64,000 nucleotides of DNA from assembly GCF_011758565.1 (NCBI RefSeq), contig NZ_JAAMOX010000001.1, positions 1,217,838 through 1,281,837 of the forward strand, written 5' to 3'. Position 1 is the stretch's first letter, and each line of letters opens with the position of its first letter. This stretch comes from Lysinibacter cavernae (GTDB lineage Bacteria > Actinomycetota > Actinomycetes > Actinomycetales > Microbacteriaceae). Below, one piece after another: positions 6,692 to 53,363 of this stretch. Position numbers and translations under genes: made by a program. Below the pieces are notes generated by a model. It searched no databases. It was not told the DNA's origin and saw only the letters and a list, made by a program, of their open reading frames with translations.

Positions 6692-8251
6692 ATGCGAAAC
6701 CAAGGAATCGGCTCGTGGATTCACCGCCGCCGCGAAAAATCAGCAGCCAACATCGCCGTCGTGAGCGGCGATCAGAGTGTCACCTACGCCGAACTTGACC
6801 GGCGCATTAACGCCTTCGCGGCGGCGCTTGCGCAGCGGGGCATCCGAAGCGGCGACCGCGTCGCCTACCTTGGCGAAAATCACACGGCATTCCTCGAAAC
6901 CTTCTTCGCCTGCGGCGTACTTGGCGCCATTTTTGTGCCGCTCAACACGAGGCTCGCGCCGCCAGAGGTGCGGTACGCGCTTCGGGACTCGGGCAGCAGC
7001 ATCCTTGTGCACGCTGATTCCCTTGAACCGCTCGCCGCCGCAGGCAGCGTCGACACCTTTATCGACCGCCGCATAATTGTGAATGACCGCACCGAGGTCG
7101 AGTGGACGACGCCGATTGGTGCGGTGCCACTCTCTGACCGCATCCTCATCGAATCGCATGAAACGGTCATCGCTGAGCACCTTGGCAGCGCAGCACATAT
7201 TGATGCAGAGGTGAGCCTTGATGACCCTGCCATGATTCTGTACACCTCAGGCACAACGGGGAGCCCAAAGGGCGCGCTGTTGACCCACGAGAACCTAACC
7301 TGGAACAGCTACAACGTACTCGTCGACTACGACGTTGTGAGCAGCGACATCGCCCTCATCATCTCGCCAATGTTCCATGTAGCCTCCCTCGATATGGGCG
7401 TGCTCCCGGTCATCCTGAAGGGCGGAACGGTTGTGCTCGAGCCGCGCTTTGACCCAGGTAGAGCCCTTGAACTCATTGAGCTGCATCGCGCCACAATGAT
7501 CAGCGGAGTGCCAACCACGTATCAGCTCATCTGCGAGCATCCGCTCTGGGACCAAACCGATATTTCGTCACTCAAGAAGCTCACCTGCGGCGGATCGGCT
7601 GTGCCAGTTCGCGTGCTGAACGCCTACGAAGACAGAGGCCTCGCGTTCTCTGGCGGATACGGGATGACCGAGACGGCACCAGGCGCCACAAGCCTCAACC
7701 CGTCAAAATCCCGGGCCAAAATGGGCTCTGCCGGGCTGCCACATTTCTTCACGGATCTGCGGATCGTGGATACCAACGGCCGTGTGCTGCCCGCAGGCGA
7801 AGTTGGCGAAATCCAGTTGTCTGGCCGAAACGTCATCCGCGAATACTGGAATAAGCCAGAGGCAACCGAAACTGCATTTGCCGATGGTGAGTGGTTTATG
7901 TCTGGCGACACCGGCTACGTTGACGACGACGGGTACCTCTTTGTTACGGGACGTATCAAGGACATGATCGTGTCTGGCGGCGAAAACGTGTACCCCGTTG
8001 AGATCGAGCAGCTCATCGTTGAGCTTCCCGCGGTCGACAGCGTTGCCGTCATCGGCATTCCTGACGAGCGCTGGGGCGAAGTCCCGCACGCGGTTGTGAC
8101 GCTGCGCAGCGGATCGACGCTGGATGCCGCTGCGGTGCAGGCGCATCTCTCCGGACGCATCGCTCGCTACAAAATCCCGAAGACGCTTCAGGTTGTGGCT
8201 GAGATGCCACGAACGGCGAGCGGCAAAATCAGAAAAACCGACCTGCGGTAG
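6692..8251 (+). CDS. phdA: Acyl-CoA ligase (AMP-forming), probable phenylpropanoid-CoA ligase (PhdA-like)
   Basis: A 519-residue ANL-superfamily ligase with all core motifs: P-loop LYTSGTTGSPKG, GYGMTETAPG, the hinge GDTGYVDDDGYLFVTGRIKD and the catalytic lysine in TASGKIRK near the C terminus. It would activate the aromatic acid with ATP and CoA, the first step of the pathway encoded upstream. ATG 6692 follows GGAAGAAGGA; the frame is open 70 codons further upstream, but that part is low-complexity and overlaps the hairpin. C. glutamicum phdA is likewise apart from phdBCDE. The exact substrate is not determined by sequence. Confidence 0.82.
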   Translation: MRNQGIGSWIHRRREKSAANIAVVSGDQSVTYAELDRRINAFAAALAQRGIRSGDRVAYLGENHTAFLETFFACGVLGAIFVPLNTRLAPPEVRYALRDSGSSILVHADSLEPLAAAGSVDTFIDRRIIVNDRTEVEWTTPIGAVPLSDRILIESHETVIAEHLGSAAHIDAEVSLDDPAMILYTSGTTGSPKGALLTHENLTWNSYNVLVDYDVVSSDIALIISPMFHVASLDMGVLPVILKGGTVVLEPRFDPGRALELIELHRATMISGVPTTYQLICEHPLWDQTDISSLKKLTCGGSAVPVRVLNAYEDRGLAFSGGYGMTETAPGATSLNPSKSRAKMGSAGLPHFFTDLRIVDTNGRVLPAGEVGEIQLSGRNVIREYWNKPEATETAFADGEWFMSGDTGYVDDDGYLFVTGRIKDMIVSGGENVYPVEIEQLIVELPAVDSVAVIGIPDERWGEVPHAVVTLRSGSTLDAAAVQAHLSGRIARYKIPKTLQVVAEMPRTASGKIRKTDLR

Positions 8252-8404
8252 GGGTGGTTGCGGGTAGGGGTGATTGCGGGCGCGGGTGATTGCGGGCGCG
8301 TGAGCGTGGCGGGCGCGTGAGCATGGCGGGCGTGGCTCCGTGAGGAGCGCGCAAAGCTCTGCAGGGTGCGCGCAAAGCTCCGCGGGAGCGAGCGCAGCTC
8401 TGCG

Positions 8405-21442: not shown

Positions 21443-22720
21443 CTAGTCGAAGGCCTCCCACCCCGGTGTTGTGTCGTCCTTCACCTCGGCTGGCGCTGGC
21501 GATGACGGAGGGATGACCGCGGGTGCAGCCGGCGGCGCGGGTGGTGGCGTATCGGATTCGGCGACAGGGGCGGGAACCGCTGGCGCTTCGGGCGGCTGAA
21601 CAGCAGCAGGCGCCGGCGTCACCCCGCGGTCGAGCGTTGGCTCGGGAAGCACCTCAACGGGAGTCTCAACAACTGGCTCATCGGGCTTAGCGTCAGCAGG
21701 AACAGGCGGACTTTCGACTGGATGGGTTCCATAGTCAATTGCGACCGGGGTCACCGGAACAATCGTGACCTGATCAGCAAGCGCCAACCCACCAAAGACG
21801 GCGCCGGTTACCAGGACTGCGGCGCTCCCAACAAGCGCCAGTTTTGCGCCAACAGAAAAACCTGTCGAAGTCGGCGCAACGACCGCCGCTGAGGCGGAGC
21901 CCGAGGATCCCCCCGCAAAGGCGGCAAGTCCTACCCCGGAGCCGCCAAGGATGAGCGGCGCAACGACCGCGCGCATCTGCTTGCCAACATCGCTCATCCG
22001 TTCGACCGAGCGTCGGCAAGCTTCACAGCCATCAAGGTGATTCTGCACGGAGACGCTGTCCCGTTTCCCCGATTGGTTTCGCACAAAGCGAGCCAACTTT
22101 TCGGCCATTGCATGACACTCACCTGACGGCATCTGCTCGGCGTGAAGGGAAAGGTAAGCAACCTTGAGCCCGTCGCGGGCGCGCAGCGCGAGCTGCGCGA
22201 CCGCGTTTGCGTTCATTCCGATCTTGGCGCCAACATCTGAAAGATCAAGCCCATCAACTTCAATCAGCCAGAGGACGCTTTGCCAGCGCTCCGGGAGCTG
22301 CCGAAACGCTTCGTACACGAGCTCGCGCTCGCCCATTTCTTCGTTTCTATCCAGTTCTTGCAACTGCGGCAGGTAGTTATCAGCGTCGTCAGGGAGGGCA
22401 ACGGTGGCTACGTCAACGGCCCGAATATGCAGGTTTCGTAAGACCATGTTCAGGTAGGCACGGAACGACTCGGTTGGGCCCTTTCCTCGATTCAGCACGC
22501 CGAGGATGCGCTCAAACGCTTCGCTGAGGAGATCCTCTGCGTCTCGCCGGTCGCGTACGAGATGGAGCGCGTATCTGATGCCATTCTCGTAGTTTCGGTT
22601 GTAGAGCTCGGTGAAGGCGACCACGTCGCCGTGCCGTACGCGATCGCACAGCACGGCATCCGTGATCAACTCATCTTCCTCAGCACGAGCACGCTGAGTG
22701 TTCTCCATTTTTCCCCCCAT
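21443..22720 (-). CDS. Sigma-70 family (ECF-type) factor fused to zinc-finger, transmembrane and proline-rich segments
   Basis: A 425-residue protein. Residues about 20-190 are an ECF sigma factor: region 2 (FTELYNRNYENGIRYALHLV, RDAEDLLSEAFERIL) and region 4 (LPERWQSVLWLIEVDGLDLSDVGAKIGM). Residues about 205-245 resemble an anti-sigma zinc finger (HLDGCEACRRS). A single helix near 290-310 (KLALVGSAAVLVTGAVFGGLAL) leads to a Pro/Val/Glu-rich exported tail. Sigma and its restraint are thus one polypeptide, anchored in the membrane. It starts 11 bp after the stop of the giant adhesin gene; a second ATG at 22708, preceded by GGGGGGA, is an alternative start. Confidence 0.82.
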   Translation of the reverse strand: MGGKMENTQRARAEEDELITDAVLCDRVRHGDVVAFTELYNRNYENGIRYALHLVRDRRDAEDLLSEAFERILGVLNRGKGPTESFRAYLNMVLRNLHIRAVDVATVALPDDADNYLPQLQELDRNEEMGERELVYEAFRQLPERWQSVLWLIEVDGLDLSDVGAKIGMNANAVAQLALRARDGLKVAYLSLHAEQMPSGECHAMAEKLARFVRNQSGKRDSVSVQNHLDGCEACRRSVERMSDVGKQMRAVVAPLILGGSGVGLAAFAGGSSGSASAAVVAPTSTGFSVGAKLALVGSAAVLVTGAVFGGLALADQVTIVPVTPVAIDYGTHPVESPPVPADAKPDEPVVETPVEVLPEPTLDRGVTPAPAAVQPPEAPAVPAPVAESDTPPPAPPAAPAVIPPSSPAPAEVKDDTTPGWEAFD

Positions 22721-22731
22721 TGTCTACCGCC

Positions 22732-25700
22732 CTAACGGTTGTTGTATTTCCTTCTCAGCCCAAGCACGAGGCCCATCATGACTGCCCCGATACCGAGTAT
22801 CAGGATCGGCCACGAGTCGCCAGTGCCCGTGAGCTGCAGCCGTGATGGCTGAGCGCTCCCCGCGTTGCTGCCATCACTCGGGTTACCCGGCGCACCAGGC
22901 GTTTCCTTTGCACCGGGGCCTTCCGGATCGACCGGAGGAACAACCGCCGTTTCAAAGGTATTCACCGCGGTGATGCTCAGCTGCTGGAGTGACTCTGGCG
23001 TACCTTCGGTCACAACAACCGCCTGATCATACGAGCCGTAGTCCACCGTGTGCGCGACGGCCGTTCCCGCGTCAGTTTCCGTCGCGAAGCAGTGTGTGCC
23101 GAGCGGCAACTTTGTGCGGTTGCCAACGTCGTCGATCATGCGCTTATTCTGGTCAATCTTGATCTTGACGGTTCCAGAGTAGAGCGTCGAAATGACGGTG
23201 TCGCCGTTCGCAAGGGTCTCAGGAACCTGGCACGTCACGAGGATAGAAAAGACATCATCCTTGACCTGCGCAAGCGCCTCAGCTGGACCCTCGGCGCGTT
23301 TTGAGATGCTCAAGGCACCCGCCGAGTAGTAGTTCGTGAGCGACGCCACAACCGTGTTTTCTGGTACGGATGCGTCGGCCGCCTTCTTCACGACCGTCAC
23401 GGTAGCGGCAGCGGCGTTGTCGTCCGCCTTGCCCTTGTCCGTTTCGGTAACCGTACACGTCGTACCGAGTGGCAGGTTGGTGATCGGTGCCGAGGTGACA
23501 CTCGTCGCGCCATCGGGCACGGTGAGCTCAACGTCGTCAACGGGGATCGTCCTCCCCCTCACCTCACAAGCGACAGCAAAGGTCAGCGTGTCTCCGTAGG
23601 CAAACGCGTCAACACCGGCACCTTCGAGCTGCTTCGTGATGACGATGCCGCCCGTTGCCTCAACCGCAAGGTCAAGGGTGAGGTTGGTGAAGTCATCGCT
23701 CAGCAGAGGATTGGTGATCACACCGGCCACGTCGTCCCCAAGGGGTCCGTTTCCTGTGACGTTCGGTGGATCGATATCAGCCGAAAGGTTCAGGAGCCCT
23801 GCGCTGCGCAGTCCGCCGTCTGGCAGTTCTTCGTTGTTGTTATCAACATCCTCATTAAGGTTTGTATTCGGGTCTGACTGCACACCGTGCGGGGATGCGG
23901 AGAAGCCATACAACGGCCCGCCCTCAGCAAACTGGTCCGCCGATACTCGTACGTAGTAGTCACCAGTATCAAGCTTATTTGCGACCCAACGGCCGTTGGC
24001 ATCCGTCGTCACGGTCTCAACAACCGTCTCGGTGCCGTTGACCACACGAACAACTTCAACCGTGACTCCTGCAGGAGCGCCAGTGTCAATCGCGGGGTCA
24101 TACACGCCGTTCTCGTCGTTGTCCTGCCAGATAAGGTCTCCAATGCTGAAGCCAAGCACTTGGGTGTATGGCTCATTTGAGACAACGGGCTGCGTCGCGT
24201 AGGTTTCCGACCACACCGCAAACATTCCGACGTAGAGGTCAGCCGCAGAGTTGTCCTGCGCGGCAAGCTTCACGGTTGCCGAGACCAACGTCTGGGCCTC
24301 GAGGCTGTCGGTTTGAATGAACCGGATCGCCGTCACCTCGCCGATGTTCGCCGGGCAACCGGTCGTGCCGAAGTCGGCCTCGGTGCACCAGCGCGTGCTT
24401 CCGCCCGAGAGCGCGTTGGAGGCATCGTTTGCCAGATCAGATACGGTCTCTGCCGCGGCAGAGGTGTAGTACCAGTCACCGGCAAGCTCGCCAGTCATAC
24501 TGCCCGTCGCAACCGGCTTCGCAGGAATTTCTGCAAGCTTCAGCGAACCGGAATAATCAGAGCCGTAGGTGTGTCGAGCAGATTCGTAGCCGGCTACGTT
24601 GTCCCCCGTCTTGGGGAACACAAAGATACTGTCTGTCGGCATGATCTTGGCGCCTGAGGCGGTGTTGCCCCAGTTCAGCTTCCACTGCTGGGTTTGGTCA
24701 GTTGTGTTGATCCGCTGATCAACATCCATCTCAACCTGCAGTCCCTCTGGGGCGTACATAATGACGCCACGGGTTGCCTCGTGGAACTGCTTTTTGTAGA
24801 TCACGTTGTCAGCAAGCACATCTACCGTGTTGATCAGTTCAGAACCAGACGCAACAAACATCGAGCCCGAGGTGCACACGTCAATCTTGGGAAGGTTCTC
24901 ACTCGCCGCCCGATCACCGTACGACCAGGTCAGGGTGGTCAGTCCCTTGGCATTTGTGCCAAGGATAGGCCCGGAGACGCCGTCGGGGGTGACCGTACAT
25001 GCTGGCTCGAACCTGAGCGAAGCTGGCAGCGTGTCAACCACCGTCAAGTCTCGCGCCTGAGCAGACGGAACCGTCGACGAGACGTACGGCGAGATCGTCC
25101 AGGTGAACGGGTCTCCCGCGTTTGTGGTGTTCAGGTTATCGTCACCAGACGCATCCTGATTTGCGGTCTTCGTGATTCCAAGAGCAACGCTCTGGAAGGC
25201 GAGACGGTCACCACGAGCGCTCGGCCCAGCATGGGTGTTTGGGTCGTAAGTTGAGGGATTCTTGTAGCCACCGTTCGCGCGGCTTCCCGTGAAGTTTGCG
25301 AGGATAACGCCGGACTCAATGGCCTGGCCGTCGTTTGGTCCGCCATAGAAGTTCACGCGGGTCACCAGCTTTGCGCGCAGCATCAGTGAGGTGAACGCGT
25401 CAAGCTGGTTGTTCTTTGGGGTCATGCGGATGATCGCGATGTCCTCAAGGTTCCATCCGTCTGCCACAGGATCGGTGCTAAAGATCAGGTCGCCCGCCGT
25501 TGCTGCTGAGGTTCCACAGTCTTGTGCAATACCTCGCTGGGCCGTCCAGTCACCCGTGTAGCGTGCCGTGGTCGAGTCATAGGTCTGCATGAGCGGGTTG
25601 CCCCACGAGCCGCCTGCCGTCAACTTGCCGTATTCAACGGTGATGCCCTCAGAAGCCGGATCGAAGGCGTGCTTTGTCGGCGCTCCGCCGGGTGTGGCAA

Positions 25701-27924
25701 GAGAGAGCGAGGCGAGCATGCCGGCGGACGGTCCACCAGAGAACGGCGCAAGTGTCTGCACCGAGTTATCCCAGACGTCACACACCTGTGCATTGGCGAC
25801 GGGGATAGTGCCCGTGGAGTTTGTGGTGTTCAGGTAGGTGTACATCTCCTCGCCACCGGTGGTCAGTCCGTCACCAAGCAACCAGCCGGAAAGACCGGTC
25901 GGGATGATTTCCTCGGTGTTCTTATAGTCGGGGCTTGGCGTGCCGTTGACGTGAACGGTCAGCGGGTCTCCGGATGCTGGGATCTTTCCGTATGCCTTCA
26001 CAAGGGCACCACTCGCCCTGACGTCGAGGTCGTGGGTCACGCAGTTGTCACCGCTGGCGGTGTTTCCGTCCCAGCCTGGCTCGTTTCCCCCACCAAAGTT
26101 GCTCACTCCGCCTGGTGACGTTGGCTCAAAATCGGTGTAGCAGTTTGTCACGCTGTAGAGACCGGTGACCAGCGGGTCGCCGTCTTTCCAGCCGTTCAGG
26201 GCCGGGTTCTTTGCCTTATTTGCCTTCATCAGCGCAGACAGCGGATAGGCAACCGTGACACGACCAACACTTGCGAGCGCGTGGGCGCCCATCGAATTGG
26301 TGCGGTCCATCGATGTGGTCGGAACCGACGCAAGCGTTGTGTCTGCCCCCGTGACCTTGACGCCAAACGAACCAGACGCGTCAGCGGCGCTGTCACAGGC
26401 GAAGTCGCTCGACTGCAGTTGGTTATCGCCTCGCGCAACACCGGCGGCGACGGCGCCTGGCAACATCCACGACTTTGAGTAGCTGTCGTTCAGCGCGCCA
26501 CAGTATCCCGGCGCGGGAGCCGCACCGTATTTTGCGAGCTCAGGGTCAATCAGGTCACGAAACTCGAACGAGTCGCCAATTGATTGTTGGCCCTTTTTAC
26601 CGCCGTATCCCTCGATCACCGCTGAATAAGTGACCAGCAGCGAGTCTTCGACCAGCCCGGTCACGGGATTCGTGAGCTTATACACCCCGGAAACAACCTG
26701 AAGCCCACCCTGTGGGTCTTGGTCTCCGTGACGCTTGACGAGGTTGAATCGGGGGGCGGCAGAAACATGAACAGGGTCGATGTCGTACTGCTTACTTGGG
26801 AGGGCGTCGTTGCTTGCCGAGTAGGCAATCGCCGACGTCTCAAATGACGAGTCGTTGGGAGATTCACCCGTTGTCAGGATGTTGATTCCAAACGGGCGTG
26901 CTGAGCCGGTATCAATCGGGCCAACGTTACAGATCAGGCGCTGGTCCCCGTTTGCCTCAACAAGAATCTGGGACTTCACCGACCGGTCGATGCGGCACAG
27001 CGTTGGTACCTGAGCCGCCCCGCTCACCTGGAAGTTGACCTTTGCGCCGTCCGTTGCCTTCAGCAGCACCTCAAGAATCACGTCGCCAACGGGCAGTAGC
27101 TTGTCGTCAACGCCCTTCTGCAGGTTGGTTGCGCCGATGGTGTACGCGATGCTGGTGATATCGTTCGTCGCGACCCGGTTATCGTACAGCGAGCAGTCGT
27201 TACCTGGCTCGGCCGTCGGGCAGATGTTATTCACATCGGGAAGCGTGCCAGAGCCAGTAACGATTCCGCCACCGTTTGGCAGGCTGGTATCACTGCTCGC
27301 GAGGCCCAGCGAGAGCTGGGGAATCGGCCGGAGCCCGCCGTTCACGGCTGCGGAGGTTCCGCCAGCAACGGTCACCGGCGCGATTGCGGTGTGCAGCGTT
27401 GGCGGCGCTTCCGCCTGCCCAACCAGGTCAGAGTGTGACGTGCTTGGCATAATCCAGCGATAGTTCTGTGAGGGAGACACGGCACGAACCGTGTAGCTTC
27501 CGTCAGCTACCGCCGTAAACGCGTATTCGCCGGTGTCACCTGTTGTGGTGCTGGCAACGATGTTGCCCGTCGATCCGAGGAGGTCAATCTTGACCCCGCC
27601 GCGACCTGCCGACTCCAGCCCAGCTCCTGCAACGCTCGGATCACCGAAGGATTCCGTCGAGCCAAGAATGTTGTCGTCTTGTGATCCGTTACCGTTGAGG
27701 TCGATCCAGACGATGCCGTGCACACCCTCGGAGACCTCACCGGGGTTCACAACGGAACGCGGGCTTGACCCTGCCGGATTGTTGACGGCGGATGCCAGCA
27801 TTGACGGCGATACGGTGAGCATCGAGGTGATGAGCGCGGCGCTCACTACGGTAGCGAGCGTTGACCCAAGGTATCGACGATGTTCGCCGTTCCGGTTGAG
27901 CCTGGTTTTTTGATTCCCCAACAA
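22732..27924 (-). CDS. Giant LPXTG-type surface adhesin with SdrD-B-like and DUF5979 domains
   Basis: A 1730-residue wall-anchored protein. A long signal peptide (residues 1-47, hydrophobic TLATVVSAALITSMLTV) is followed by an SdrD-B/Cna-B-like domain (about 65-155: VHGIVWIDLNGNGSQDD, GVKIDLLG), a large beta-rich central part, a second SdrD-B-like domain (about 1330-1425: IGDLIWQDNDENGVYDP), and two DUF5979 domains (from GGIVITKQLEG and ALSISKRAEG). The end is a Gly/Pro/Asn linker, a sorting signal LQLTGTGD, a hydrophobic helix and RRKYNNR. A sortase is needed; none is in the window. The start is TTG 27924 with GGGA upstream. The sigma gene follows at once. Confidence 0.85.
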   Translation of the reverse strand: MLGNQKTRLNRNGEHRRYLGSTLATVVSAALITSMLTVSPSMLASAVNNPAGSSPRSVVNPGEVSEGVHGIVWIDLNGNGSQDDNILGSTESFGDPSVAGAGLESAGRGGVKIDLLGSTGNIVASTTTGDTGEYAFTAVADGSYTVRAVSPSQNYRWIMPSTSHSDLVGQAEAPPTLHTAIAPVTVAGGTSAAVNGGLRPIPQLSLGLASSDTSLPNGGGIVTGSGTLPDVNNICPTAEPGNDCSLYDNRVATNDITSIAYTIGATNLQKGVDDKLLPVGDVILEVLLKATDGAKVNFQVSGAAQVPTLCRIDRSVKSQILVEANGDQRLICNVGPIDTGSARPFGINILTTGESPNDSSFETSAIAYSASNDALPSKQYDIDPVHVSAAPRFNLVKRHGDQDPQGGLQVVSGVYKLTNPVTGLVEDSLLVTYSAVIEGYGGKKGQQSIGDSFEFRDLIDPELAKYGAAPAPGYCGALNDSYSKSWMLPGAVAAGVARGDNQLQSSDFACDSAADASGSFGVKVTGADTTLASVPTTSMDRTNSMGAHALASVGRVTVAYPLSALMKANKAKNPALNGWKDGDPLVTGLYSVTNCYTDFEPTSPGGVSNFGGGNEPGWDGNTASGDNCVTHDLDVRASGALVKAYGKIPASGDPLTVHVNGTPSPDYKNTEEIIPTGLSGWLLGDGLTTGGEEMYTYLNTTNSTGTIPVANAQVCDVWDNSVQTLAPFSGGPSAGMLASLSLATPGGAPTKHAFDPASEGITVEYGKLTAGGSWGNPLMQTYDSTTARYTGDWTAQRGIAQDCGTSAATAGDLIFSTDPVADGWNLEDIAIIRMTPKNNQLDAFTSLMLRAKLVTRVNFYGGPNDGQAIESGVILANFTGSRANGGYKNPSTYDPNTHAGPSARGDRLAFQSVALGITKTANQDASGDDNLNTTNAGDPFTWTISPYVSSTVPSAQARDLTVVDTLPASLRFEPACTVTPDGVSGPILGTNAKGLTTLTWSYGDRAASENLPKIDVCTSGSMFVASGSELINTVDVLADNVIYKKQFHEATRGVIMYAPEGLQVEMDVDQRINTTDQTQQWKLNWGNTASGAKIMPTDSIFVFPKTGDNVAGYESARHTYGSDYSGSLKLAEIPAKPVATGSMTGELAGDWYYTSAAAETVSDLANDASNALSGGSTRWCTEADFGTTGCPANIGEVTAIRFIQTDSLEAQTLVSATVKLAAQDNSAADLYVGMFAVWSETYATQPVVSNEPYTQVLGFSIGDLIWQDNDENGVYDPAIDTGAPAGVTVEVVRVVNGTETVVETVTTDANGRWVANKLDTGDYYVRVSADQFAEGGPLYGFSASPHGVQSDPNTNLNEDVDNNNEELPDGGLRSAGLLNLSADIDPPNVTGNGPLGDDVAGVITNPLLSDDFTNLTLDLAVEATGGIVITKQLEGAGVDAFAYGDTLTFAVACEVRGRTIPVDDVELTVPDGATSVTSAPITNLPLGTTCTVTETDKGKADDNAAAATVTVVKKAADASVPENTVVASLTNYYSAGALSISKRAEGPAEALAQVKDDVFSILVTCQVPETLANGDTVISTLYSGTVKIKIDQNKRMIDDVGNRTKLPLGTHCFATETDAGTAVAHTVDYGSYDQAVVVTEGTPESLQQLSITAVNTFETAVVPPVDPEGPGAKETPGAPGNPSDGSNAGSAQPSRLQLTGTGDSWPILILGIGAVMMGLVLGLRRKYNNR

Positions 27925-45858: not shown

Positions 45859-48612
45859 GTGGGCTTTCACAATCTGACCAGCTATCGAACACAGCGCAAG
45901 TTGACGAGCCAGCCATCGCGGCGAATCAGCTTGCTCGCGGTGTTCGCCCTCGTCGCTGGCCTCTCGTTTGTGGCATTTGCTGCGCCGCAGGCAGCGTCGG
46001 CCGATGTGAGCGCACAGTGCGCATCCCCGACTCGAACCGTCTCACCGTCTGACCGTTCCATTTCCGTAGCCAGCGGCGAAACGGTTCTGGTTGCTGCCGA
46101 CTTCACCGGCGGCATCGACGCACTGCCAACAAATGGCGCCCTCTGCATCGCCTCTGGCGCGACGCTGACCGGCTCGTACCTGAATAATGCGGCGGGGTCA
46201 CTCTCTGTTGCCGCCGGGGGTTCACTCTCGCTTCCGTCGATTGCCGTCGCAACCGGATTCCTCCTCGACGTTGAGGGCTCGGCTGCGGTCGCCGGCCTGG
46301 CGATGAATGGCAATGCCACGATACACGTTGCCGATGGTGCAACGTTCACCTCGGCAGGCTCAATTGCCTCGGCCTCGGGGGAATTTCATAACGAGGGCGA
46401 GTTCCATGTTGACGGTGCGCTCGATCTGAACACCGGCGTCCTGTTCGAAAACTCCGGCATCCTCTCGGTCAAGGGCGGTGCCAATATCAACGGCCAGCTC
46501 ACGAACTCCGGAATAGCCAACTTCTCGCTCGGGTTGACCATCAACGGATCGGGCTCGCTCCACAATAGTTGCGCGGTCAACGCGCTCGGCGATCTCATGA
46601 ACAACGGTGGCACCTCACAGAACGAGGGCATTGTTCTCACAACGGGCAACTTCACCAATAACGGGCGTTGGACTCAGTCTCACAACGGGGTATCAAGCGC
46701 GGTCGGCTTCACCGACGACGGCACCGTCACCGGGTTTGGTCGCTATCACTTCACTGGCAACTCGAGCGTGCAGGGCACATTTATCGGAGACTCTGCGGCA
46801 GACCCCATCGTGGTGCAATCAACAGCCCCCGGCTCACAACTCTTCAACACGCAAACAGGCGGTGTCTCAAATGCCATGAGGGGCACGGTGAACCTACTCG
46901 TGCCGTTCCCCGCGTGTGGGTCAACAACAGAACCGAGCCCAACCGCCGACGTTGAGGTCGCCAAGGACGGCCCGGCAACCGTCTTCGAAAACGGAGTTGT
47001 CACCTACACCATCACGGTCACCAACCACGGCCCCTCTGCCGCGGCAGGGGTCACTGCATACGACCAGCTCCCCACGGGTTTCACGCTCGACCCGGCATCA
47101 ACGACGGGCACCGTGAACAGCGGTCGCATCAGCTGGAGCCTCGGTGATCTTGGCGTCAACGAGACGATCACGCTCTCCTTCTCTGGAACGGCCACCGCGC
47201 CTGTTGGCACCATTCTCACCAACGGCGCGATTGCATCCTCAACAACTCCGGACACCGCGCCAAGCAACAACGACGGAACATCGGAATCCAGCAGGGTATC
47301 GACCGAGGTGATCGCGACTCCCCCACCCGCGAATGTCGCGCCCGTTGCAAACGATCTCACTCGTGACACCAGCACCAGGCTGCTTGAGGTCGGTCAGGTG
47401 CAAGCATCCGATGCAGATGCCGGACAAAAACTCACCTACACAAAGGCGACGTCCCCCGCGCACGGAAACGTGTATTTCACCGCATCCGGCGGGTTTGTCT
47501 ATCTCTCCGACGCCGACTTTAGCGGCTTCGACAGCTTCGATTATCAGGTGTGCGACAACGGCACTCCCGTGCTGTGCGATACGGCAACCGTGACCTTTAA
47601 CGTGTACCCGCGAGCCATAGATGACAACGCGCAAACGTTTGAAGCATCGCCCGTCGCTATTCCGCTCCTGGCAAACGATATCCCGGGCAGCCAACTCGAA
47701 ACGACAATCACGGCCACCCCAGCCAACGGCCAGGTCTCTGTCAACGCCACCGCGGGTGTGGCCACATATGTCCCTGCCGATGGTTTTACGGGAACCGACA
47801 CCTTTGAGTATCAGATCTGTTCGCTCACTTCTCCCCAGCTGTGCGCTATCGCCACGGTGACGGTGACCGTCATCGCCGAGAACAACCCTCCGGTAGTTCA
47901 ACCGCTGACACAAATAACGGTCGTCGATTCGGCAACCACCGAAACCGTGACCGCAACCGACCCAAACGCTGGGGATATCCTGACCGATGAAAGCGGAATC
48001 CCGCCACGCAGCGGCAGCGTTTCTGTCGATGCGGGCGGAACCGTTGTCTACACCCCGCATCATGGCTTTGCAGGCCGGGATGAGTACACGGTCATCGTCT
48101 GTGACGACGGCACGCCCCAGCTCTGCGCTACCGGACTCGTCAGCGTAGAGATCTTGCCGCTTGCGTCACCCGATTTGGCAACAACGCGGGCAGGAACTCC
48201 CGTCTCCATCGAGGTACTCACAAACGATGCAGGAACCGTCTCTGCCCCCACCGTCGCCTCGCAGCCAACCAACGGATCGGTCAGCATTACTGGCGGAACA
48301 GCCGTCTACACTCCAGCGACCGGTTTTGTAGGGACCGACAGTTTCACCTACACAATTTGCGCGCTCGAGGCGGCTGACCTCTGCGCAACAACAACCGCAA
48401 CTATCACGGTAACCGCTGCACAGCCCGGTACTACACCGCCTGGTACAACACAGCCCCCAGCTCACGGTGGAAATGCCTCCGGACCAAGCACGGGAGGCCT
48501 GGCCGTCACCGGCGCCAACGACCCAATCGCGCCTGCCCTCGGATGGGCAGCTTTGGCAGCAGGCTTCGCCTGCATTGCCGCGGCCAGAAGCCGCAAACAG
48601 CGCCAGATCTAG
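45859..48612 (+). CDS. Wall-anchored adhesin-like protein with DUF11 and Ig-like/cadherin-like repeats
   Basis: A 917-residue exported protein. The signal peptide (about 20-50, RISLLAVFALVAGLSFVAFA) precedes a 280-residue stretch of short Gly/Asn/Ser-rich strands (MNGNATIHVADGATFTSAGS and similar) that looks like a beta-helix. Then come a DUF11 domain (about 370-460: DVEVAKDGPATVFENGVVTY) and four Ig-like repeats of the type GFTGTDTFEYQICSLTSPQL. The tail has a Pro/Gly linker, the sorting signal GLAVTGAND, a helix and RSRKQRQI. The GTG start at 45859 has GAGAGG 8 bp upstream. Confidence 0.82.
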   Translation: MGFHNLTSYRTQRKLTSQPSRRISLLAVFALVAGLSFVAFAAPQAASADVSAQCASPTRTVSPSDRSISVASGETVLVAADFTGGIDALPTNGALCIASGATLTGSYLNNAAGSLSVAAGGSLSLPSIAVATGFLLDVEGSAAVAGLAMNGNATIHVADGATFTSAGSIASASGEFHNEGEFHVDGALDLNTGVLFENSGILSVKGGANINGQLTNSGIANFSLGLTINGSGSLHNSCAVNALGDLMNNGGTSQNEGIVLTTGNFTNNGRWTQSHNGVSSAVGFTDDGTVTGFGRYHFTGNSSVQGTFIGDSAADPIVVQSTAPGSQLFNTQTGGVSNAMRGTVNLLVPFPACGSTTEPSPTADVEVAKDGPATVFENGVVTYTITVTNHGPSAAAGVTAYDQLPTGFTLDPASTTGTVNSGRISWSLGDLGVNETITLSFSGTATAPVGTILTNGAIASSTTPDTAPSNNDGTSESSRVSTEVIATPPPANVAPVANDLTRDTSTRLLEVGQVQASDADAGQKLTYTKATSPAHGNVYFTASGGFVYLSDADFSGFDSFDYQVCDNGTPVLCDTATVTFNVYPRAIDDNAQTFEASPVAIPLLANDIPGSQLETTITATPANGQVSVNATAGVATYVPADGFTGTDTFEYQICSLTSPQLCAIATVTVTVIAENNPPVVQPLTQITVVDSATTETVTATDPNAGDILTDESGIPPRSGSVSVDAGGTVVYTPHHGFAGRDEYTVIVCDDGTPQLCATGLVSVEILPLASPDLATTRAGTPVSIEVLTNDAGTVSAPTVASQPTNGSVSITGGTAVYTPATGFVGTDSFTYTICALEAADLCATTTATITVTAAQPGTTPPGTTQPPAHGGNASGPSTGGLAVTGANDPIAPALGWAALAAGFACIAAARSRKQRQI

Positions 48613-48883
48613 GAAACGTGCGACGCCCCACCAGAGTTACATATCACTCGATGTAACCACAATCAATATCTTGACACACTAACTTTCAACACTCACTCCA
48701 TTTGTCCAGGGAACCAACGGGTACGCCACAGCTAAGAATGCTCACGACCGTTTATTTATCTGCCATAATATATATCAAGCGAGGGCTTGGGGGCCCTCGC
48801 AGTAGGAATCTAGGGTTCCTACGTTGGGGGTTCTTTTGGGGGTTCCCAATCACGTTAATCAACGGATTGAGAAGAGAAAAAAC
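48613..48883. promoter_or_regulatory. Promoter and structured 5' leader of the SipW-type export operon
   Basis: After an AT-rich stretch (ATAATATATATC, 48765-48776) that could hold the -10, three hairpins follow in tandem: GCGAGGGC (48779-48786)/GCCCTCGC (48793-48800); GTAGGAA (48802-48808)/TTCCTAC (48816-48822); TTGGG (48836-48840)/CCCAA (48845-48849). A direct repeat TTGGGGGTTC (48824-48833, 48836-48845) overlaps the last. Ribosome-binding site GAGAAGAG is left free. It could stabilise the mRNA or act as an attenuator; no known riboswitch was recognised. Confidence 0.55.
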
Positions 48884-49468
48884 ATGAACAAGCTTTCTAA
48901 AGGTCTAATCGTTTCTGGTCTTGGCGTCGCACTTCTGCTCGGAACCGGCGGCTCACTCGCACTCTGGAACGTCAGCGCGCAGAGCGAGGCAGGCAGCATC
49001 AACACCGGTGATCTGAACCTCGTCGTCGCTCCTACCGGCCAAACATGGGAGATCCAGACCGGTCCGGCCACCTGGGCACCAATCGCCGACATTGCCGACT
49101 TCAAGATGGTTCCGGGCGACGTCGTCCGCCTGACCCAGCCGATGAACGTCACCCTTGTTGGTGACAACATGAAGGCAAGCCTCACGGTAGACACCGAGGC
49201 AGCCGTAGTGTCGGGTGACGCAACCGCCGCAGACCTCTTTACAGTCAACACGAGCTTCCTTGCACCCGATGTCGCTGGCGTCCAGCTGCCGGTGCAGACT
49301 CCAGGAACCAACGTTTGGAACTTCAGCGAGCAGGTGCTCGGCGGAACCCAGACGTTCAAGCAGCAGATCACCTTCGACTTTTCCGCAGCGGCGTCAGACC
49401 GGGTCGGGAGCGTCTCGAAGGTTGACCTGAGCAAGACCAACTTCGTCCTTGAGCAGGTTGCGCTCTAA
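48884..49468 (+). CDS. Alternate signal-mediated exported protein (RER_14450/TasA-like), first subunit
   Basis: A 194-residue secreted protein. Its signal peptide is the SipW-dependent alternate type (KGLIVSGLGVALLLGTGGSLALW), directly followed by SAQSEAGSINTGDLNL, the sequence typical of the RER_14450 family and of Bacillus TasA/camelysin precursors. The mature part is beta-rich, with the repeated phrase KASLTVDTEA and no sorting signal. It would be cleaved by the SipW-type peptidase at 50286 and could polymerise as a surface fibre. ATG 48884 follows GAGAAGAG. Confidence 0.82.
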   Translation: MNKLSKGLIVSGLGVALLLGTGGSLALWNVSAQSEAGSINTGDLNLVVAPTGQTWEIQTGPATWAPIADIADFKMVPGDVVRLTQPMNVTLVGDNMKASLTVDTEAAVVSGDATAADLFTVNTSFLAPDVAGVQLPVQTPGTNVWNFSEQVLGGTQTFKQQITFDFSAAASDRVGSVSKVDLSKTNFVLEQVAL

Positions 49469-49490
49469 CCAAGCGCTACTTCTACAGGCC

Positions 49491-49531
49491 TACTGGCGAG
49501 TGGATCGCTCATATCGATACACTCGCCAGTA
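49491..49531 (+). terminator. Intra-operon hairpin after the first exported subunit
   Basis: A perfect 12-bp stem TACTGGCGAGTG (49491-49502) / CACTCGCCAGTA (49520-49531) with a 17-nt loop, 22 bp after the stop and 31 bp before the next gene. No strong U-tract follows. It may partly terminate transcription or protect the upstream message, giving more of the first subunit than of the downstream proteins. Confidence 0.72.
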
Positions 49532-49561
49532 AGTCACCGTTTTCAGGGGAGGTAAAGCGGC

Positions 49562-50218
49562 ATGGGCACGACAGAATCACTGAGCATCATGGCTCACTTG
49601 CGCACGTTCCGACTCCCCCTCGCGCTCCTCGCACTCGCAACGACTGCCATCCTCATCTTGAGCACAGGCAACTCGTTTGCGACGTGGATGGTGTCGCAAC
49701 AGGGCAAGGGCACCATCAACACGGGTCGTTTGAGTTTTCAACTCATGGATGCAAACGGCCAGAACGCTTCACCTTCAGATCCAAACAGCTCGGCATCACC
49801 GAGCTACTCGTTTCAGGCGCTGACAATCAGCGCATTATCACTCCTGCCTGGCGATACCAGAGTTGCGCTGATGAAGGCCACGAACACGGGTGACACACCG
49901 CTCACACTGTCTATCACCGGCATAGGGAACTCGGGCTCGTCGGCAGCACACAAGGATTTAGTTGACACGATGCGCATGGGCATTGTTTCGTCAGCGTCAA
50001 CCACATGCGATCCCGCAACGATCACAAGCTTCCGCGCCGTCAGCTCGGTGACCGCAACCGAAGCGGTGCAGGTCGTCCCTGCGGCATCCGCACTCAAACC
50101 GGGCGAAAGCACCAACCTCTGCGTTGGATATCAGCTCTCAGACACCACACCGAACAGCACCCAGGGACTCGCCATCAGGTTCACGTTCCAAGTGCGAGCG
50201 GACCAGCACCGACCTTAA
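49562..50218 (+). CDS. Alternate signal-mediated exported protein, second subunit
   Basis: A 218-residue secreted protein with the same architecture: hydrophobic LALLALATTAILILSTGNSF, then ATWMVSQQGKGTINTGRLSF, aligned with the first subunit's ALWNVSAQSEAGSINTG. The mature region has a Ser/Pro linker, LLPGDTRVALMKATNTGDTP, and two cysteines (TTCDP and TNLCVG) that may form a disulfide, unlike the first subunit. GGGGAGG precedes ATG 49562. Possible minor or tip subunit. Confidence 0.78.
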   Translation: MGTTESLSIMAHLRTFRLPLALLALATTAILILSTGNSFATWMVSQQGKGTINTGRLSFQLMDANGQNASPSDPNSSASPSYSFQALTISALSLLPGDTRVALMKATNTGDTPLTLSITGIGNSGSSAAHKDLVDTMRMGIVSSASTTCDPATITSFRAVSSVTATEAVQVVPAASALKPGESTNLCVGYQLSDTTPNSTQGLAIRFTFQVRADQHRP

Positions 50219-50285
50219 CCACAACCTGTTGCCATCCGCAACGACAACAACACAACCCAGATGGGCGCATAGAAAGGGGCACAGC

Positions 50286-50864
50286 ATGGCAGCACACGCA
50301 GCTAACCGTCGCTCCCGCACCGCATGGGACATCACCAAAGCAATTGCGTTTGGCGTTGTTGTATCGGCGCTCATTGTGATTGTCGCGGCCCTTATTGTTG
50401 TGCCGCGTGCCACGGGGTCGACCACCTACACAATCTTGACCAACTCGATGGCCCCGGGACTTCCGCCAGGGACGGTCATCGTGACCCAGCCGCGCGCGAT
50501 CTCCGACATCCGCGTTGGTGACGTCATCACTTACCAGGTCGAATCGGGCAAGCCAGCGGTCATCACTCACCGCGTGGTTGGCATCAGCACCGACACCAGA
50601 GGCGAGACCGCGTTTATTACCAGGGGCGATAACAACTCGGTCAACGATCCTGAACCAATCATTCGCGAGCAGGTACTCGGCGTAGTTATCTACTCGGTTC
50701 CCTATATTGGCCTCGCTATTAACGCCGTGACAGGAAACGCAAAACTGCTTGTACCCGTTCTCATCGCGGTCGTGTTCATCCTTTGGGGCCTTGGCTATGT
50801 GGTCTCATACGTACTTTCACGAAAAAAGAAGCAGGCCGCCCTCCCGGAAGACGATGCCGCATGA
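50286..50864 (+). CDS. sipW: Signal peptidase I, SipW (archaeal/ER) type
   Basis: A 192-residue membrane peptidase: helix (about 20-44), catalytic serine in TNSMAPGLPPG, and HRVVG in place of the lysine box, i.e. the Ser-His arrangement of SipW and eukaryotic signal peptidases rather than the Ser-Lys dyad of LepB. The later RGDNNSVND box is conserved, and a second helix (about 155-180) ends in KKKQ. It should process the alternate signal peptides of its neighbours. ATG 50286 follows GAAAGGGG. The next gene overlaps by ATGA. Confidence 0.9.
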   Translation: MAAHAANRRSRTAWDITKAIAFGVVVSALIVIVAALIVVPRATGSTTYTILTNSMAPGLPPGTVIVTQPRAISDIRVGDVITYQVESGKPAVITHRVVGISTDTRGETAFITRGDNNSVNDPEPIIREQVLGVVIYSVPYIGLAINAVTGNAKLLVPVLIAVVFILWGLGYVVSYVLSRKKKQAALPEDDAA

Positions 50865-51667
50865 AGCGCCGGACGCTCACAGTCACCATGGCGGTGACCA
50901 CAATCACTATGGTCTCGTTGGCCATTCCGTCGTTGGCCACGGCCAAGTCAAACTCGTACGTAGACGGCATTGCACCCGTTGCGCAGCCTGAGCCTCTCCT
51001 GCTCAGCAATGACGGAACCGTCTGGGGAACAACACTTCCTGAACCACTCTTCGACGCGGCCCATCGCTACGTTCCTGGAGAAGTACTTGAGTCAGGTTTC
51101 TGGATCCTCAACAATTCCGGACACCCCGCTTTGTACACGGTGCAGGCCACAAACGTGAACATGACTACCGCACTCGCTGGCACCCTCAGCATGACAGTTG
51201 GTGGCGACGGTCTCACATCGGCCCCGCTGACCAACTGCTTGACGATGGTACGCAACACACCAATTGCGGCGGGCGAACGACTCTACATCCAAAGCGCTGT
51301 TTCGCTCAGCGAAGCTGCGCCCCTCGACGCACGAAACCAGGTGGCTTCGTTCGGAATCGGCACAACCCTGCACGACGCTCCACTCACGATTGCTGACGGT
51401 CAATGCCTGGATGACACGGATAATACCCTGCCTCCTATTGCCCCGATCGATACCGACCCACCTTCAACGCAGACGCCTGCGCCGCCAACAACCGAGACAG
51501 CTCCGAGCGACGGATCAGGCAGTTCAGCATCGCAAGCCGTTTCGGCACCTGCATCACAACTCGCGCTGACCGGCGCATACCTGGGAATCTGGGCCCTGCT
51601 CGCTGCGGCTCTCTCGGTGGGAGGCATTCTCATTGGCTTCCGTAAACGAAAGGCAACTCATGAGTGA
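50861..51667 (+). CDS. Wall-anchored protein of the SipW-type operon
   Basis: A 268-residue exported protein with a conventional signal peptide (MAVTTITMVSLAIPSLATA), a beta-rich domain (about 35-185) containing YVPGEVLESGFWILNNSGHP and two cysteines, a Pro/Thr/Ser linker, the sorting signal LALTGAY, a hydrophobic helix and FRKRK. It may tether the secreted fibre subunits to the wall. It overlaps sipW (ATGA) and, by 8 bp, the RCC1 gene, so the three are translationally coupled. A sortase is required from elsewhere. Confidence 0.78.
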   Translation: MKRRTLTVTMAVTTITMVSLAIPSLATAKSNSYVDGIAPVAQPEPLLLSNDGTVWGTTLPEPLFDAAHRYVPGEVLESGFWILNNSGHPALYTVQATNVNMTTALAGTLSMTVGGDGLTSAPLTNCLTMVRNTPIAAGERLYIQSAVSLSEAAPLDARNQVASFGIGTTLHDAPLTIADGQCLDDTDNTLPPIAPIDTDPPSTQTPAPPTTETAPSDGSGSSASQAVSAPASQLALTGAYLGIWALLAAALSVGGILIGFRKRKATHE

Positions 51668-53363
51668 TCTTGGCTACGGGATGGCGGCACAAACCGAATC
51701 GCGGCGACGCTCGCTTCGCCGCTGGGTTGGTGCGGCCACAGTGCTCGTGTGCACGCTTGCCGGTGTACTTGGCTCGATGCCTGCCGAAGCACTCTGGAGC
51801 ATTAACGATGCCAAATTCACCGCAGTAGCCTCAACAGACGTACTCACCGCCCCGACTAAACCATCCGCGCTGTTGCCTGAGGCAAACGCACTGTCGGTCA
51901 GCACGAGCACCGGCCCAAGCAGCGACACACTCTCGCCCTCGTATACGTTTGAGCGCTCGACAACAAGTGACTTTGCTTCCCCAACGACGCTGCACAGCGA
52001 CAGCCCGACGGTGAGGGACACCGGAAACGTTGCGCCAACGGCCACCCCGATGAAGCTCAGCAAGATTTCGACCGGGGTAAATTCCTCGTGTGGGCTCTCG
52101 GCTGGTGACGTGTACTGCTGGGGCCAAAACGATACTGGGCAGCTCGCCCAGGGAACCCTCTTCACGAGCTCAAACGTGCCGCTCAAGGTGCTGCGGGTAA
52201 CCGATAACGCCGGTTCCCAGATTCCTGCCGCCGCCGTCTTTGTCGACGTTTCGGTTGGCGAGGGAACCGCTTGCGCCGCAACAACGAAGGAAGCCTATTG
52301 CTGGGGCATTAACCGCTCAGGCAATGCGACGGCCAACCTTGCCGGCGTCATTACGCTCGCCCGAAAGGTTCCGACCGGGGTCATTGACGGCATCAGCTCG
52401 ATCTCCGTCGGCTACGACCACACCTGCGCAATCTTTGGCTCGCGGGGCGCAAGCTGCTGGGGCGGCAACCTCAGCGGACAGATGGGAAACGGCAACTCGG
52501 GCGTGAGCGGAGCCTTCGCTCCAACCCAGGTTGCGACATACGGTGTTGCAGGCTCGGCGATTCCGAACGGTGCGGTTGCCACAAAGGTCAGCGCTGGCAA
52601 TCAGTACACCTGCCTCATCGCTTCCAATAACGCGTATTGCTTCGGCATCAACACATACGGCTCCCTTGGCAACGGAAACACAACCATGTATGCGGTTCCT
52701 CAGCGGGTTGTGACGGGCACGATGCCGATCAACACCGTGTCAGACATCGTGACGGCGGTTGAGTCCCAGAACAACGTTCGCGCATCGTGCGCGATTGCAA
52801 ACTCAAATGTGTATTGCTGGGGTGCTGCCTCGTACGGCGCGCTTGGCAACGGAACGGTTGCCCCAAACGTCTCCAGCCCGGTCCGCGTCCTCCAGGTTCC
52901 AGCAGGAACAGCCTTTTCCCTCGCGAGCGGAAGCTCCGGCCACTGCGTCATGACGATGACCAACATCTCGTGGTGCTGGGGCGGGGGGACGGCAGGGCAG
53001 CTCGGAAATGGGATGGCCGACGTCTCGTTACCAATCCAGACCATCGTCCCGCAGGGCAAGATAGTGGTTCAGATTTCGAGCAATTCGAGTACCCGGTGCT
53101 GGTTGTTCTCCGACGGCACGGCCGGATGCGCCGGCGCTGGTGGCTACGGCAGGCTTGGTGACGGCGGCGCCGCACGTCCGAACGCGTACACCCACACGAT
53201 TGTCGCGATGCCGAGCACCCTGAAATGCGCGACAGGTGCCGTCTTGCTTGCCGACAACACGTGTTCGCTCACGTCAAACACCACGTACTACTACCGGGTG
53301 TCGGTCACACTCGGCAACTGGTCAAGCCCTGTCTCCGCCGTCGCCGCGCTCAAGACGGCCTAG
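51660..53363 (+). CDS. Secreted RCC1-repeat protein
   Basis: A 567-residue exported protein. The signal peptide ends in AEALWSINDAKFTAVAS, similar to the alternate type. An Fn3-like half (STGPSSDTLSPSYTFERSTT) is followed by seven RCC1 blades (for example CGLSAGDVYCWGQNDTGQLA, YTCLIASNNAYCFGINTYGS), each with paired cysteines and CWG. The C terminus resumes an Fn3-like strand pattern (TYYYRVSVTLGNWSSP). The propeller thus seems inserted in an Fn3-type domain. No sorting signal or membrane tail. Last gene of the operon. Confidence 0.83.
   Translation: MSDLGYGMAAQTESRRRSLRRWVGAATVLVCTLAGVLGSMPAEALWSINDAKFTAVASTDVLTAPTKPSALLPEANALSVSTSTGPSSDTLSPSYTFERSTTSDFASPTTLHSDSPTVRDTGNVAPTATPMKLSKISTGVNSSCGLSAGDVYCWGQNDTGQLAQGTLFTSSNVPLKVLRVTDNAGSQIPAAAVFVDVSVGEGTACAATTKEAYCWGINRSGNATANLAGVITLARKVPTGVIDGISSISVGYDHTCAIFGSRGASCWGGNLSGQMGNGNSGVSGAFAPTQVATYGVAGSAIPNGAVATKVSAGNQYTCLIASNNAYCFGINTYGSLGNGNTTMYAVPQRVVTGTMPINTVSDIVTAVESQNNVRASCAIANSNVYCWGAASYGALGNGTVAPNVSSPVRVLQVPAGTAFSLASGSSGHCVMTMTNISWCWGGGTAGQLGNGMADVSLPIQTIVPQGKIVVQISSNSSTRCWLFSDGTAGCAGAGGYGRLGDGGAARPNAYTHTIVAMPSTLKCATGAVLLADNTCSLTSNTTYYYRVSVTLGNWSSPVSAVAALKTA

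Follow-up and report, generated by a model that had tools for sequence, protein, structure and literature searches.

Fibres of the SipW/TasA type have been studied in Bacillus and Clostridium. In B. subtilis, the minor component TapA has a complete fold and begins with five residues nearly equal to those of TasA (PMC10151520), and it donates its N-terminal strand to start the filament (PMC10151520; PMC9674648). Which form such systems take in Actinomycetota, and how their fibres carry a binding function, is the question addressed here for an operon of Lysinibacter cavernae (Microbacteriaceae) that encodes a SipW-type signal peptidase together with a propeller protein of the RCC1 fold; it lies in a window of 64,000 nucleotides (contig NZ_JAAMOX010000001.1, positions 1,217,838 to 1,281,837 of the forward strand), to which all coordinates refer unless a locus handle precedes them. 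The five co-directional genes, A to E, span positions 48884-53363:

48884-49468, + strand: gene A, SipW-class exported subunit, putative major subunit (194 residues; TIGR04089, E 1.8e-31; TIGR04088 above cut-off)
49562-50218, + strand: gene B, second protein with a SipW-like N-terminus, FATWMVSQQGKGTINTGRLSF (218 residues)
50286-50864, + strand: gene C, SipW-type signal peptidase I with Ser54 and His95 (192 residues; TIGR02228, E 1.8e-26)
50861-51667, + strand: gene D, protein with an LALTG sorting signal, a canonical-looking signal peptide and an unnamed conserved domain
51660-53363, + strand: gene E, RCC1 propeller protein with a SipW-like N-terminus and without wall anchor (567 residues; Pfam RCC1, E 2.3e-25)

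Genes A and B are separated by 93 bases and genes B and C by 67, whereas C and D overlap by 4 bases and D and E by 8, so that translation is probably coupled at the latter two junctions. The first-pass annotation of this stretch had described a SipW-type export operon with two TasA-like subunits, a dedicated Ser-His signal peptidase, an LALTG-anchored protein and a seven-bladed RCC1 protein. Positions and gene identities were confirmed, and the same set is present in Klugiella xanthotipulae (Microbacteriaceae), where the genes follow in the order A-B-C-D-B'-E and another E and another A lie upstream of them; this conserved order argues that the operon is more than a chance assembly. The assignment to SipW-type export with a cognate peptidase was upheld by the scores of protein A against TIGR04089 (109.6 bits; cut-off 60) and the SipW signal-peptide model TIGR04088 (20.4 bits; cut-off 19) and by that of protein C against TIGR02228 (92.9 bits; cut-off 51.85); in C, Ser54 (TNSMAP) and His95 (ITHRV) are both present and are invariant in four aligned sequences, the window included, while the score against the Bacillus SipW equivalog NF046067 (73.1 bits) is below its cut-off of 190. 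The C-terminus of D indeed consists of LALTG, a hydrophobic stretch and an RKRK tail, and E carries seven C[WFA]G repeats. Overlooked at first was the SipW-like N-terminus of E itself (ALWSINDAKFTA...), which TIGR04088 does not recognise. The suggested search for the five-gene set in relatives retrieved it completely in Klugiella, and elsewhere an A/C/D core without E. That the propeller is part of the system, as had also been proposed, did not follow from the window alone; it gained its support from the relatives.

Gene adjacency, fusions and matched N-termini in related genomes support the view that the propeller belongs to SipW systems and is no mere neighbour. Adjacency was assessed at a distance of 5 kb in those 15 of 150 genomes of the family in which an E-like RCC1 protein was matched at 1e-10, RCC1 matches being merged into genes by hand and 8 of the 45 signal-peptidase rows (E above 1e-9) being excluded: a SipW-like gene was located near 8 of the 28 RCC1 genes, the E of the window included, against 0.39 expected (P 9e-9). 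The corresponding values were 7 of 27 without the E of the window (P 1e-7), 6 of 25 against 0.33 expected with tandem genes merged (P 1e-6), and 5 of 24 with tandems merged and the window removed (P 2e-5). A wider profile search retrieved E-like RCC1 proteins from 24 of 398 genomes of the family (E <= 1e-25), and SipW stood alongside in two (G385 and G231) of the 12 additional genomes with such a protein. At the level of the order, 41 of 396 genomes gave an RCC1 match at 1e-20, with a SipW-like gene within 5 kb in 2 of 40 (G000 excluded), namely G653 and, at two places, G595; the pairing also occurs outside the family in PROP3, a metagenome-assembled genome of Actinomycetota. Within the DNA stretches examined of 17 named loci, a SipW-like gene was present in two. 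The link between SipW and RCC1 is therefore recurrent, yet most RCC1 genes lie elsewhere. The genome of the window contains five further SipW-like loci besides the A-E operon, in one of which (L014) SipW is paired with an RCC1 protein of 922 residues.

RCC1 proteins encoded next to SipW mostly combine a SipW-like N-terminus and a missing wall anchor with a propeller that seems to be inserted into an FnIII-like domain. Translation of 27 RCC1 proteins, of which 14 were classed by eye as SipW-type, revealed no recognisable wall anchor in these 14 (a loose xTG pattern flagged five of them, judged false by eye as hydrophobic stretch and positive tail were missing); an anchor-like C-terminus was present in 8 of the 13 others, and L056b was the sole anchored RCC1 protein near SipW. 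An FnIII-like C-terminus was recognised by pattern in 11 of the 14 SipW-type proteins and by eye also in L053, but not in L014 and L056a.

Subunit and propeller are fused in genome G131, two RCC1 proteins of which start with a subunit domain of approximately 170 residues that is followed by a split FnIII-like domain and the propeller. The fusion domain of L054b matched the stand-alone subunits of the same locus at 7e-15 and 9e-14, that of L054a at 2e-13 and, along a stretch of 90 residues, at 3e-9 (E values for 14 sequences searched); by inspection, the same layout is found in G231, a genome of the same genus.

The N-termini were compared over 23-24 residues from the junction at loci that encode SipW and a subunit besides an RCC1 protein. 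The peptides were picked by eye, loci from within a family are not independent of one another, and, as no subunit was found beside its SipW-RCC1 pair, G653 was excluded. Among nine loci, the RCC1 N-terminus scored best with the subunit of its own locus in seven (P 2e-5); with G385 and G231 included, the own partner came first in 8 of 11, and the observed sum was not attained in any of 100,000 permutations (P 1e-5). The P value was still 1e-5 with the two fusion-bearing loci removed, and likewise with all residues up to the aromatic one removed (own partner first in 7 of 11). No such match was detected in the flanks of the nine loci, neither in the 18 upstream residues of the signal core (P 0.39) nor in the next 25 residues downstream (P 0.32); in consequence, the likeness is confined to the junction segment, where TasA has its donor strand. 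A profile of subunit N-termini ranked five of the 27 RCC1 proteins (L050b, L014, L060, L054b and L053) above all 309 background proteins, while L054c and L050a were equalled or exceeded by one background protein, which was L054c itself, as the background included it. When the junction was searched for by a regular expression, 13 of the 14 SipW-type RCC1 proteins and 1 of the 13 others matched, but so did 44 of the 309 background proteins, so that the pattern is not specific; the single SipW-type protein that it missed was E, owing to the charge filter.

The structural elements of E are distributed as follows:

51789-51845, + strand: putative donor segment with the SipW-like junction, ALWSINDAKFTAVASTDVL (residues 44-62; from the alignment, weak for E itself)
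51825-52028, + strand: first part of an FnIII-like domain (residues 56-123; joined-halves profile, moderate evidence)
52041-53219, + strand: seven-bladed propeller (residues 128-520), with one closely spaced cysteine pair per blade
53256-53360, + strand: second part of the FnIII-like domain (residues 533-567)

The AlphaFold model of E (predicted local distance difference test, pLDDT, 76; predicted template modelling score 0.73; residues 1-59 below a pLDDT of 50) superimposes on the RCC1-fold protein UVR8 with a Z of 49 and a root-mean-square deviation (rmsd) of 2.0 over 358 residues, in agreement with the seven repeats and the Pfam RCC1 match (PF00415); chains of BLIP-II (1jtd, 3qhy) are among the structural matches as well (Z 26). 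The cysteine pair in each blade fits an extracellular protein. For the FnIII-like domain, the residues flanking the propeller were joined in silico for nine homologues: FN3 chains in the PDB were matched at 0.0045-0.36 (an Fn3-like protein at 0.0045, Robo3 at 0.015), with alignments that span the join, the top PDB match being a capsid decoration protein (0.0015). E had no FnIII match in Pfam at the gathering score, and the Pfam matches of the joined halves were weak (PF16656, 1.1e-4; PF16655, 1.8e-4; SusE, 0.0015; fn3, 0.0085; none for one of ten). On this moderate evidence, an FnIII-like domain seems to hold the propeller as an insertion. At its N-terminus (...PAEALWSINDAKFTAVASTDVL), E shares the aromatic junction of A (SLALWNVS...) and B (SFATWMVS...), and in all three proteins a leucine follows 15-16 residues past the junction (manual count).

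Based on these comparisons, we consider it an evenly balanced proposition that the operon encodes a fibre of the SipW/TasA kind, linked to the wall by D, with E as its donor-strand initiator or cap. As motif and adjacency suggest, C would process A, B and probably E by removing their signal peptides; A, in excess, and B would be subunits of Ig-like (immunoglobulin-like) or jelly-roll type that polymerise in TasA fashion, the freshly cleaved N-terminal segment of one being inserted into the next; and D, which would leave the cell by way of an ordinary signal peptide and be attached to peptidoglycan by a sortase of the genome, would tie the fibre to the wall. E would be a minor, TapA-like component: its fold being already complete and without an anchor, its free N-terminal segment could start or cap the fibre, and the cysteine-rich propeller would thereby be placed at the fibre end as a ligand-binding head. 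By analogy, E and its relatives would follow the logic of TapA, the propeller replacing the Ig domain of the latter. Fibre formation, SipW dependence and ligand binding by E are what we infer in this scheme. More tentatively, donor-strand fibres exported by SipW may have RCC1 propellers as exchangeable heads in several families of Actinomycetota; each propeller protein would either carry a donor strand matched to the subunit of its own fibre or be fused to that subunit, so that a TapA-like initiator becomes a binding tip.

Several observations weigh against this interpretation. The TasA likeness of A is weak, and a six-sequence profile of A matched no chain of the PDB. In a TIGR04088 scan of E and 19 other RCC1 proteins no match was obtained at E <= 5, and B was unmatched too; the profile of subunit N-termini assigned 2.7 bits to E, a score reached by 15 of the 309 background proteins. 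In the N-terminus comparison, the own partner of the window's E ranked second of 11, and tenth when the part after the aromatic residue was used alone; the corresponding ranks were 7 and 9 for Klugiella and 4 and 5 for G231. Owing to these three exceptions, the N-terminus argument for the operon studied here rests on its relatives. Moreover, most RCC1 genes have no SipW nearby (20 of the 28 genes, 10 of the 12 further genomes of the family and 38 of the 40 genomes at order level), and in G023, a genome of the same family, three E homologues are distant from the SipW genes.

As an alternative, E may be an independent secreted protein, released as a binding or inhibitor protein, with the SipW-like N-termini marking cargo of the peptidase and nothing more, whether or not A and B form fibres. 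This would agree with the complete propeller fold, with the missing wall anchor, with an N-terminus that in the window is unlike those of A and B past the junction, and with the likeness to BLIP-II, an independent secreted binding or inhibitor protein. We nevertheless regard it as rather unlikely: subunit and propeller are fused in G131 and, by inspection, in G231, and the match to the own subunit persists without the residues up to the aromatic one, that is, beyond the needs of a cleavage site. A non-fibrous coat or matrix of A, B and D that E decorates non-covalently, without donor-strand assembly, would be compatible with the likeness of A to solved fibre subunits, which is weak and common to many Ig-like surface domains. 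For the AlphaFold model of A (pLDDT 84), however, Foldseek places donor-strand pilins of type 1 pili at the first five ranks and the TasA fibre 8aur at rank 8 (E 0.075; TM score 0.38), with no match reaching an E of 0.001; the known SipW cargo of Bacillus and Clostridium makes filaments (PMC9674648, PMC7395162), and we judge such a coat to be improbable.

Superposition of 8aur on A gave a Z of 5.7 (rmsd 4.2; 138 aligned residues), a value tied with unrelated Ig-like entries, and A matched no Pfam family at E <= 1, those of TasA and camelysin included. Of the two subunits originally called TasA-like, A may retain the term in a weak sense, whereas B, for which no family match was found, does not. 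B had no NCBIfam match at E <= 1, TIGR04089 and TIGR04088 included, and nothing better than 0.18 in Pfam; in a profile comparison with A the probability was 84%, limited to the N-terminal 90 residues. It is 51% identical to its Klugiella counterpart, and the comparison of B with D gave 2%. Translation of B could alternatively begin at an internal ATG (49589).

A covalent pilus polymerised by sortase, with D as basal pilin, was considered with regard to the C-terminus of D:

51560-51574, + strand: LALTG sorting signal of D

This signal fits the substrates of class E sortases, whose motif is given as LAXTG (PMC5148588), and three sortase matches are present in the genome of the window. They are located outside the cluster, either more than 450 kb away within its contig or on a different one, and A, B and E are devoid of sorting signals; the SipW fibre of C. 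perfringens does without the neighbouring sortase (PMC7395162). A pilus of this type is therefore highly improbable. D itself matched no Pfam family, and its matches in the PDB were at chance level. Directly upstream of A, a large LAVTG-anchored surface protein (45859-48612) with four Big_9 stretches and DUF11 (Pfam) is encoded, which was dropped as a candidate sixth member of the operon, since gene calling showed no counterpart next to the operon of Klugiella. Near the SipW loci L015-L017, too, large proteins are encoded, of which two have LAVTG. Further off in the window, a protein of 1704 residues (22732-27846, - strand) has an anchor-like end (RLQLTGTGD...), and the adjoining gene (21443-22669) resembles, by eye, that of an extracytoplasmic function (ECF) sigma factor.

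Two putative RNA elements accompany gene A:

48776-48883, + strand: structured 5' leader of A, with two short inverted repeats ahead of the ribosome-binding site
49491-49531, + strand: 12-bp perfect stem-loop directly 3' of the stop codon of A, a putative signal for processing or attenuation

The leader region (48750-48890; RNA fold z -3.7 versus shuffles) is a possible regulatory element; it had no Rfam match at E <= 1, nor had any other part of the operon, and no sigma-70-like promoter was found. For the stem-loop region (49466-49565) the fold z was -5.4, and values of -2 or below were obtained for 7 of 10 further regions downstream of A genes, the exceptions being both G023 loci and L205. 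Since a predicted terminator with read-through is described 3' of the major subunit gene of C. perfringens (PMC7395162), the hairpin is read by analogy as a putative device that would favour A over the downstream genes.

With respect to distribution, TIGR04089 was matched in 66 of 150 sampled genomes of the family and D (E <= 1e-3) in 67 of 398. Six loci in five other genomes of the family (two in G023, one each in G190, G040, G268 and G083), chosen by their D matches, have the A/C/D core without E within the DNA stretches examined, and B-like or second A-like genes accompany the core in most of them. Some further loci deserve mention. In Klugiella, an E-like remnant of 80 residues between two A genes (L048 13599-13841) suggests duplication and decay of E. 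L018 (G000:C1:1961000-1975000) contains what seems to be the same pair of SipW-type subunit genes twice (308-1780 and 6861-8333), with the same lengths and starts; the pairs flank two succinyl-CoA ligase-like genes and a SipW-like protein of 775 residues, and may reflect a recent duplication or an assembly artefact. A SipW-type peptidase with its own LAYTGA-type, anchor-like end is encoded at L067 8520-9761. Within 17 kb, L243 (G231:C1:162000-179000) encodes two complete RCC1 proteins and part of a third, one of them beginning with a subunit-like domain, in an array with three peptidases of the SipW type and four or more subunit-like proteins. In G023, an E-like RCC1 gene far from SipW (L051 8364-11402) is followed by what by eye is an IS30-type transposase-like gene.

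Compared with the described systems, the locus shares with sipW-bsaABCRSD of C. perfringens the combination of SipW with several secreted proteins, and it has a strong hairpin after A where that operon has a predicted terminator with read-through; in contrast to it, the accessible part of that report mentions no RCC1 gene and places a two-component regulator in the operon (PMC7395162), whereas no such regulator was called among the genes flanking A-E. In common with tapA-sipW-tasA of B. subtilis are the dedicated SipW-type peptidase and subunits with SipW-type N-termini and, in other loci than that of the window, a minor component with an N-terminus copied from that of the subunit. Different are the TIGR04089 subunit family, the D protein with its wall-sorting signal, the RCC1 protein as putative minor component instead of the TapA Ig domain, and the fibre itself, which is a predicted one here. 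A is a clear member of TIGR04089, a family of Actinomycetota that NCBIfam lists under the name of an alternate-type signal peptide protein without giving a function or referring to RCC1 or D. Surface propellers are also found in the LPXTG-anchored RCC1 proteins of bee-gut bifidobacteria, which have their own wall anchor, unlike E, and for which SipW is not mentioned in the accessible part of the report (PMC4449606); similarly, the anchored surface RCC1 protein at L019 in the genome of the window differs from E by its ordinary signal peptide and by not being near SipW. BLIP-II, which has an RCC1-like propeller as E does, is secreted by an actinomycete and binds beta-lactamase; it is not known to have a SipW context. 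In the literature searched, outside which most subscription papers and preprints lay, no paper with both RCC1 and SipW, no description of an actinobacterial SipW system and no description of the RCC1 partner was seen. The claim of a largely undescribed surface system hence has to be narrowed: the export class and the subunit family, which is common, are already known to NCBI by its models, and the new part is E. The pairings of SipW and RCC1 in relatives suggest a little-studied way to put binding heads on bacterial surface fibres and hint that a ring-shaped binding fold can be displayed by a modular route; if true, Gram-positive bacteria would have a counterpart of tip adhesins, and the recurring, sometimes fused propeller with its subunit-matched N-terminus provides a concrete test for dedicated heads on Gram-positive donor-strand fibres.

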